Source: Candidatus Geocrenenecus huangii (GTDB lineage Archaea > Thermoproteota > Nitrososphaeria_A > Caldarchaeales > Wolframiiraptoraceae). From it: DNA of 64,000 nucleotides. The notes beneath the pieces were generated by a model, which was not told where the DNA came from, ran no database searches, and worked only from the letters and a program-made list of their open reading frames with translations. The number at the start of each line of letters is the position of its first letter. Within the stretch, counting starts at the first letter, position 1. A program made the translations under genes and the position numbers. Of the stretch, positions 20,777-28,241 are shown one piece after another. Location: the NCBI GenBank assembly GCA_023268155.1, contig JALNKM010000005.1, forward strand, positions 1 to 64,000, written 5' to 3'.

Positions 20777-21226
20777 ATGGAGTCTAGGAGGACAAGATAT
20801 AAGACAGGTGTATACGGCAAAGAGGATATTGACTTAGTCTCTCTTTTACAAGACTTTATCGATAAAAAGTTTAACGGCGAAGTTGGAGCATTAGCAATCT
20901 TTATAGGTAAAGTTAAAGGTTTCAGCGTTGAAGGCATAGATGTTTCACATTTAGAGATAGAAACATACAAAGAGCACGCAGACAAGACTCTAGAGAAGAT
21001 CTGTGAAGAAGTAAGAGAGAGACACGGGTTAGCTTATGCAGGTATATGGCATTTAATCGGGAGATTCAATATAGGTGAACCCATAGTCATAGTCGTCGCT
21101 GCTGGAAAAAGTAGAAAGGAAGTGTTTGAAGCTCTACCTGAACTCGTTGAGAGATACAAGAAGGAGCCTGCGCTCTTCAAGAAAGAAGTTTACATTGATG
21201 GAAGCTACAGGTGGTTAGAAGAATGA
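20777..21226 (+). CDS. moaE: Molybdopterin synthase catalytic subunit
   Basis: Large subunit of molybdopterin (or tungstopterin) synthase, which adds sulfur carried by MoaD to precursor Z. The MoaE core is visible: GALAIFIGKVKG (about 36-47), LEIETYKEHADKTL, HLIGRFNIGEPIVIVVAAGKSR (about 94-115) and the catalytic Lys region KKEPALFKKEVY (about 131-142). Length 149 is normal. Its last 12 bp overlap the 3' end of moaD on the opposite strand, so the two subunit genes are tail to tail rather than in one operon. Confidence 0.93.
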   Translation: MESRRTRYKTGVYGKEDIDLVSLLQDFIDKKFNGEVGALAIFIGKVKGFSVEGIDVSHLEIETYKEHADKTLEKICEEVRERHGLAYAGIWHLIGRFNIGEPIVIVVAAGKSRKEVFEALPELVERYKKEPALFKKEVYIDGSYRWLEE

Positions 21227-21508
21227 TCCTCCAGATATAGGCGGTATAACGACTATTTCATCTCCATCTTTAAGGATGATTTTTCCATACTCACTTCTAC
21301 GTATAACATCTCCATTTACCGCTACGTTTATCCCATCTCTAAGATTACCTTGAGAATCTAGAAGATATTTACTCAGCCCAGCATATCTCTTAAGTAGTTC
21401 TCTGAGATACTCGTGTATAGTTGATTCAACTGGAAGTTCAAACTCTTCTTCCACCTTCCTCGTCTCCTCCCTTAAGAATGCAAGATATCTAGTCTTAATC
21501 TTCACCAT
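21215..21508 (-). CDS. moaD: MoaD-like sulfur carrier with residues after the terminal Gly-Gly
   Basis: A 97-residue beta-grasp protein. The start IKTRYLAFLREETRKVEEEF, the middle NVAVNGDVIR and the end KDGDEIVVIPPISGG are typical of MoaD. The family normally stops at Gly-Gly, which is adenylated and thiocarboxylated, but here the frame continues with Ser-Phe-Phe before TAA. Carriers with tails such as QbsE are trimmed by JAMM proteases before use, and a JAMM gene is present at 27.9 kb. The extension falls in the 12-bp overlap with moaE. ATG start. Confidence 0.9.
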   Translation of the reverse strand: MVKIKTRYLAFLREETRKVEEEFELPVESTIHEYLRELLKRYAGLSKYLLDSQGNLRDGINVAVNGDVIRRSEYGKIILKDGDEIVVIPPISGGSFF

Positions 21509-27857: not shown

Positions 27858-28241
27858 TCAATCTTCTAGTTGAACTTTTACTCCTACTCCATCTAAGTTA
27901 AATGCGTGGACATCCTCGACACTCTGATAGGGCGGGGTCAAGATTAACATTATGATTCCAATGAAATGGTGTAGATCTTCTAGCGATGGTCGAGGATGCC
28001 CTGAAGGGTGAGAATGAGCTAAACCGATTATGGAGAGATCCAGTGGGAGGAGGTCAAAACGGAAATACGCTGAAGATGTATCGTGCTGAGATAATGGAGC
28101 AAAAAGTACTTCATCGATTACAACGGCTTCCTTCTTTTTCCTACCTCTAAGTAGCATCAGCATCTCTCGTGGATGAGCATTCCTCGCAACTTCGAGTAGA
28201 GTGTCTAGTACAACCCTTGTTAAGACAACTTTTCTCAACAT
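27858..28241 (-). CDS. JAMM/MPN+ metalloprotease (Mov34 family)
   Basis: A 127-residue single-domain JAB1/MPN protein with all zinc-site residues: Glu in PREMLMLL (about 24-31) and the H-x-H...S...D signature in HSHPSGHPRPSLED (about 76-89). It should be an active isopeptidase or C-terminal trimming enzyme. Archaeal relatives (HvJAMM-type) remove ubiquitin-like SAMPs or process carrier precursors. The MoaD at 21.2 kb, with a Ser-Phe-Phe tail after Gly-Gly, is one possible substrate. ATG start. It is divergent from proS. Confidence 0.9.
   Translation of the reverse strand: MLRKVVLTRVVLDTLLEVARNAHPREMLMLLRGRKKKEAVVIDEVLFAPLSQHDTSSAYFRFDLLPLDLSIIGLAHSHPSGHPRPSLEDLHHFIGIIMLILTPPYQSVEDVHAFNLDGVGVKVQLED

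Follow-up and report, generated by a model that had tools for sequence, protein, structure and literature searches.

A tailed MoaD precursor in Candidatus Geocrenenecus, the antisense origin of its tail, and a likely JAMM-1-type protease for its trimming

How can the small subunit of MPT synthase be activated when three residues follow the Gly-Gly at which it is presumably cleaved and activated? The question is raised by moaD (21215-21508, minus strand), one gene in the 64,000-nucleotide stretch of DNA that we analysed (the window), from a hot-spring archaeon that relatives place in the Caldarchaeales (Aigarchaeota), family Wolframiiraptoraceae, genus Candidatus Geocrenenecus. Translation gives 97 amino acids and bore out the ending P-P-I-S-G-G-S-F-F described in an earlier, sequence-only reading: the Gly-Gly codons GGA GGA (21227-21232, minus strand) are followed by TCA TTC TTC for Ser-Phe-Phe (21218-21226, minus strand) and the stop TAA (21215-21217, minus strand). 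A free C-terminal Gly-Gly is absent from this primary product and would appear only after processing, and trimming by a protease is almost certainly needed. Bacterial QbsE/QbsD and HcyS/HcyD are sulfur carriers with extra C-terminal residues that a dedicated, neighbouring JAMM protease removes, in different pathways; the window MoaD has no dedicated neighbour protease and belongs to the pathway for Mo/W cofactor. The kind of system is thus already known, and what we add is the origin of the tail, a link of tails to JAMM-1 proteases that JAMM-2 does not share, and a corrected protease candidate.

We used profile searches and a carrier tree to evaluate the identity of the protein. It belongs to the ThiS/MoaD family (PF02597, E 1.5e-18) and scored above the cut-off of TIGR01687 moaD_arch (61.8 bits, cut-off 49.5), while the narrower SAMP1 model (58.8 bits, cut-off 60) and TIGR01682 (49.5 bits, cut-off 66.15) were below theirs. 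In the carrier tree, columns are few and many deep forks stay unresolved; our conclusions use only its 24-member MoaD clade (support 98/93), which the window MoaD shares with CsMoaD of C. subterraneum. Linkage of moaD to moaE recurs, being convergent and overlapping in the window and tandem in the Caldarchaeaceae and in G042, and the genome also encodes a ThiF/MoeB-type E1. Purifying selection acts on the body of MoaD within the genus (dN/dS 0.04-0.19, PPISGG end included), so the Geocrenenecus MoaD proteins are functional. Residues beyond Gly-Gly therefore sit on a selected gene and recur in relatives, as expected of a pro-carrier, and the window MoaD is probably an authentic MPT-synthase sulfur carrier that is synthesised as a pro-protein.

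The tail is read from the opposite strand of its neighbour. The gene for the large subunit of MPT synthase, moaE (20777-21226, plus strand; PF02391, E 1.1e-25), is convergent with moaD, and the two share a 12-bp overlap (21215-21226) that we compared in five species. Read from the opposite strand without a change of register, the final moaE codons TTA GAA GAA TGA become TCA TTC TTC TAA, such that the L-E-E-stop of MoaE is the exact antisense of the S-F-F-stop of MoaD. Loss or shift of the moaD stop would have let translation enter the antisense of the moaE end by three codons. Comparison of MoaD C-termini in close relatives, a check that the sequence-only reading had proposed, found that they do not all end at Gly-Gly: three of the four congeneric genomes have a tail (SSFF, SLF, and SFFYPSVASIGIDFFLEECRFFLISLN) and the fourth stops exactly at GG. 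The position of the tail is conserved in the genus, but its length varies with the end of moaE. In G001, GAG replaces one GAA in moaE and the tail reads SLF; in G003, Gly-Gly and the overlap are separated by one extra codon, which yields SSFF; in G004, MoaE has Ile (ATA) and not Leu (TTA), which costs MoaD its stop and lengthens the tail to 27 amino acids; and the MoaD of G002 has no tail, as its Gly-Gly codons run straight into a TAA.

That the tail stems from a sequencing or assembly error at the stop codon is extremely improbable. The relatives are represented by metagenome assemblies, and one of the congeners stops at GG, as an error would allow, but tails occur at the same place in independent assemblies of three other species and all five species have an intact moaE end in the overlap, and we rejected this source. 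We also rejected a conserved functional pro-peptide in the Caldarchaeaceae. The orthologous MoaD there has a conserved-looking tail, YLKLGSLTPRWP, but moaD is convergent with dcd (dCTP deaminase), and the conserved C-terminus of Dcd, GQRGVRLPSFR, is encoded antisense to the tail. Because the tails are antisense of moaE in Geocrenenecus and of dcd in the Caldarchaeaceae, they are not homologous and go back to different accidents. Judged from these sequences, tails arise through stop-codon loss and are evidently tolerated by-products on selected genes.

Three JAMM genes are encoded in the genome from which the window comes. The one in the window (27858-28241, minus strand) was the protease candidate of the sequence-only reading, and its description as a single-domain JAMM with all zinc ligands some 6.4 kb from moaD was accurate: it is a Prok-JAB protein (E 4e-12) with an intact E..HSH..S..D site, in which E26, H76, H78, S86, and D89 are present and invariant in its own family. 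Its best PDB matches were to AfJAMM (1OI0/1R5X, E ~7e-16), and a match to PfJAMM1 was absent from that search. Closest to AfJAMM and with its ligands conserved, it falls in the JAMM-2 group (AfJAMM/HvJAMM2) and not among the JAMM-1 desampylases (PfJAMM1/HvJAMM1). The off-window gene L065 (G000:C12:229375-229782, minus strand) encodes a JAMM-1-type protein, the CsJAMM orthologue, which matches PfJAMM1 (E 3e-13); with the desampylase model (cut-off 130) it scored 71.6 bits and the window JAMM 22.7 bits. The genome of the tailed MoaD thus also encodes a JAMM-1, the active type of JAMM. The third gene is Rpn11-like and lies with genes for a ubiquitin-like protein and an E2 in a Caldiarchaeum-type ubiquitin operon (L402, G000:C16:3500-9500), whose ubiquitin-like protein has a four-residue tail of its own, GG-VYVE. 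Neighbours of the window JAMM are proS and tpiA, with no Moco link, and across the Caldarchaeales JAMM-2 genes (27858-28241 and loci L036-L051) are often linked to proS, tpiA, or both. The distance between moaD and JAMM-2 is about 6.4 kb in G001 also and 15 kb in G002, and this linkage carries no weight.

Published enzymology separates these types. For Caldiarchaeum subterraneum, a member of the same order, the main text of the report states that CsJAMM (Csub_C0703) cleaves only "CsSAMP precursors", which it does not list individually; CsMoaD (Csub_C1603) was one of two precursors assayed, was treated as a SAMP precursor, and was left uncleaved by CsRpn11 (PMC6043591). Our genome G024 is the C. 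subterraneum genome of that study, with an Rpn11 identical to PDB 6FJU over 202 residues and a ubiquitin with the nine-residue tail CGEPIRRAA described there (PMC6043591). The G024 MoaD falls in the clade of the window MoaD and is thus its orthologue, and a G024 carrier at 675 kb adjoins a JAMM of JAMM-1 type. Csub_C0703 is adjacent to C0702 by locus tag (PMC6043591), and from carrier adjacency and gene order we infer that the G024 JAMM-1 is Csub_C0703 (CsJAMM). The C. subterraneum system resembles that of the window in its order, its orthologous MoaD with a post-Gly-Gly tail, its stand-alone JAMM-1, and its separate Rpn11 for ubiquitin; it differs in the sequence and origin of the tail (antisense of dcd, against moaE in the window) and in its neighbourhood, as the JAMM-1 of the window genome adjoins no carrier gene.

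In Haloferax, HvJAMM1 acts on a SAMP1-MoaE fusion to free functional SAMP1, and MPT-dependent growth returns (PMC4443979). There, the cut by a JAMM-1 falls exactly behind the Gly-Gly of a MoaD-type carrier, and MPT synthase thereby becomes active in vivo, although the substrate was an artificial linear fusion and natural Haloferax encodes samp1 and moaE separately. In MoaX of M. tuberculosis, MPT synthase activity likewise depends on cleavage of MoaD behind Gly-Gly, but MoaD there is part of a MoaD-MoaE fusion, and the cut is made by a still unidentified protease (PMC4326299). The AfJAMM (1OI0/1R5X)/HvJAMM2 group contains the closest characterised relatives of the window JAMM, and its tested members were reported to be inactive alone (PMC4895103).

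We then classed genomes by JAMM type and scored each for any tailed stand-alone carrier, using the ThiS/MoaD carriers retrieved for the order (44 genomes) and sampled carriers from elsewhere in the phylum. JAMM-1 was assigned within the order by strong PF14464 matches of 139-176 aa and outside it by a JAMM-1 profile. Grouped initially by the presence of any stand-alone JAMM, 38/72 genomes with one had tails, against 0/30 without; this grouping was later split by type. With carriers outside the order sampled, tails were found in 36 of 56 genomes with JAMM-1 and 2 of 46 without (Fisher P 8.5e-11), a value that overstates independence since the genomes are phylogenetically related. The association held, on the same sampling, by genus (16/22 against 1/21, P 4.9e-6) and by family (7/11 against 1/10, P 0.024). 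For JAMM-2, again with outside carriers sampled, tails occurred in 19/42 genomes with the gene and 19/60 without (P 0.21; genus P 0.55); within JAMM-1 strata, JAMM-2 likewise had no effect. The 31 genomes with neither stand-alone type have at least 48 GG-ending carriers, and no short tail was found among their scored carriers; JAMM-1 genomes have at least 60 tails. The two tailed genomes without a detected JAMM-1, G006 (93% complete) and G037 (81% complete), are both incomplete assemblies. In family f14, G085 combines JAMM-1 with a tail (KMS), and G053 and G120 have neither. In short, tolerance of tails tracks JAMM-1 and does not track JAMM-2.

Taken together, these results make it likely that the window MoaD is an MPT-synthase carrier precursor whose Ser-Phe-Phe is trimmed by the off-window JAMM-1 (G000:C12:229375-229782) and not by JAMM-2, and that this trimming enables its activation for MoaE. 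In the proposed sequence of events, the stand-alone, desampylase-type zinc protease, most likely L065, would cut after Gly94 and remove Ser-Phe-Phe; the freed Gly-Gly would be adenylated and thiocarboxylated by a MoeB/UbaA-like E1; and MoaD-COSH would donate sulfur to precursor Z on MoaE to give molybdo- or tungstopterin. Maturation of pro-MoaD by some JAMM is probable. By analogy with the cleavage of SAMP precursors by CsJAMM, the JAMM-1 orthologue would be the enzyme that trims MoaD in Geocrenenecus, and the trimmed, mature MoaD would be the form that MoaE uses. The general idea of the sequence-only reading, activation of pro-MoaD by a JAMM protease in Mo/W cofactor synthesis, is well supported by CsMoaD/CsJAMM, as far as the main text of that report goes (PMC6043591), and by HvJAMM1 (PMC4443979), but its choice of the nearby JAMM is probably wrong: that protein is of the AfJAMM type, from a group inactive alone, lies beside proS and tpiA, and has no association with tails.

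We accordingly rejected the window JAMM (27858-28241), with its wrong type, its housekeeping neighbours, and its missing association, as main candidate, and we give it a low probability as the trimmer of MoaD. Its catalytic Glu and Ser and its zinc ligands are all invariant, it stays within 6.4 to 15 kb of moaD in three genomes, and G006 has a tailed MoaD alongside JAMM-2 and Rpn11 types only; but its best structural relative belongs to the group that is inactive alone (PMC4895103), six genomes of genus g6 have a tailed MoaD and no JAMM-2, and genomes outside the order with only JAMM-2 had no tails among their sampled carriers. Rpn11 was also rejected as trimmer, as CsMoaD was uncleaved by CsRpn11 in the main text of the C. 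subterraneum report (PMC6043591) and Rpn11-only genomes have no tails.

Slightly less probable still is that the tailed MoaD is never activated and that a GG-ending carrier such as L002 or L003 supplies MoaE, leaving the window MoaD dispensable or with another role. The sequence-only reading had asked for a second MoaD with a normal terminus, and the outcome was mixed: three further ThiS/MoaD carriers of the genome (L002, which adjoins sufB; L003, which adjoins a MoeB/ThiF-type E1; and L004) each end exactly at GG, but all lie outside the MoaD clade. Genus g4 (G007, G010, G013, G015, G017, G019) has MoaE and no MoaD-clade carrier, and its MPT synthase must therefore depend on another carrier. 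Against this account stand the selection on MoaD, its PPISGG end included, and the recurrent moaE linkage, as does the lack of tails where JAMM-1 is missing, which dead carriers would not be expected to show. Non-specific removal of the tail by a carboxypeptidase or general proteolysis, with the JAMM correlation a phylogenetic coincidence, is the least plausible of these accounts. The tails are short, MoaX is cut by a protease yet to be named (PMC4326299), and MoaD-MoaE fusions occur in JAMM-less genomes, all of which would suit it, but the absence of short tails among the scored carriers of the 31 genomes with neither stand-alone JAMM type, the genus-level P of 5e-6, and the direct cleavage of precursors by CsJAMM that the report's main text describes (PMC6043591) speak against it.

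Maturation of MoaD by a JAMM protease is likely an obligatory step of Mo/W cofactor synthesis in the Wolframiiraptoraceae, a tungsten-using archaeal family built around tungsten enzymes (PMC9246946). The tails further suggest that a precursor tail need not be a dedicated pro-peptide and can be an accidental antisense read-out, tolerated because a trimming protease exists. We lean, by a modest degree, toward a broader reading in which promiscuous trimming by JAMM-1 relaxes selection on the position of the carrier stop: with JAMM-1, carriers would repeatedly lose the stop after Gly-Gly and either enter a convergent neighbour or acquire domains; in its absence, all stand-alone carriers would have to end at GG; and maturation proteolysis would be a constitutive, lineage-wide step of the Mo/W cofactor pathway. 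The strong association of tails with JAMM-1 predicts tail tolerance from genome content, a prediction open to test across archaea, and the analysis names the off-window JAMM-1, in place of the window JAMM-2, as the right enzyme for a test.

Tails are found on several carrier types across the order, and MoaD is not alone in having them. In the MoaD clade, 19 of the 24 members are tailed, and the untailed ones are those of G002, three g9 genomes, and G042. All 15 scored carriers of genus g2 (Wolframiiraptor-type, eight genomes) end exactly at Gly-Gly, and the only JAMM there is of Rpn11 type. Terraquivivens-type genomes have JAMM-2 and MoaE and no MoaD-clade carrier.

Several carriers are extended by whole domains. 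MoaD-MoaE fusions (L338, L339, L343, L347, L351, and L332, in families f20 and f29) come from genomes without a detected Prok-JAB gene, and their internal Gly-Gly is therefore handled by another protease or without cleavage. Fusions of a carrier domain via Gly-Gly to a downstream ThiF/MoeB-type E1 (L399 in G046, L388 in G080, L220 in G006) were found exclusively in genomes that encode a stand-alone JAMM. Four carriers of family f7 (L385, L390, L394, L398) read PVIHGG or PLVHGG and are fused to an unidentified C-terminal domain of ~172 aa. Lastly, the Caldarchaeum carrier beside JAMM-1 (L223, G024:C1:675103-675363; L218 in G027; L227 in G039) has a conserved domain of ~90 aa after Gly-Gly that gave an MraZ/AbrB-like match (PF02381, E 8e-7). 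By position, L223 is probably Csub_C0702. Cleavage of this carrier by JAMM-1 would free a putative DNA-binding domain; in sister genera of Caldarchaeum, the tail of the JAMM-1-adjacent carrier is only 3-4 residues long.
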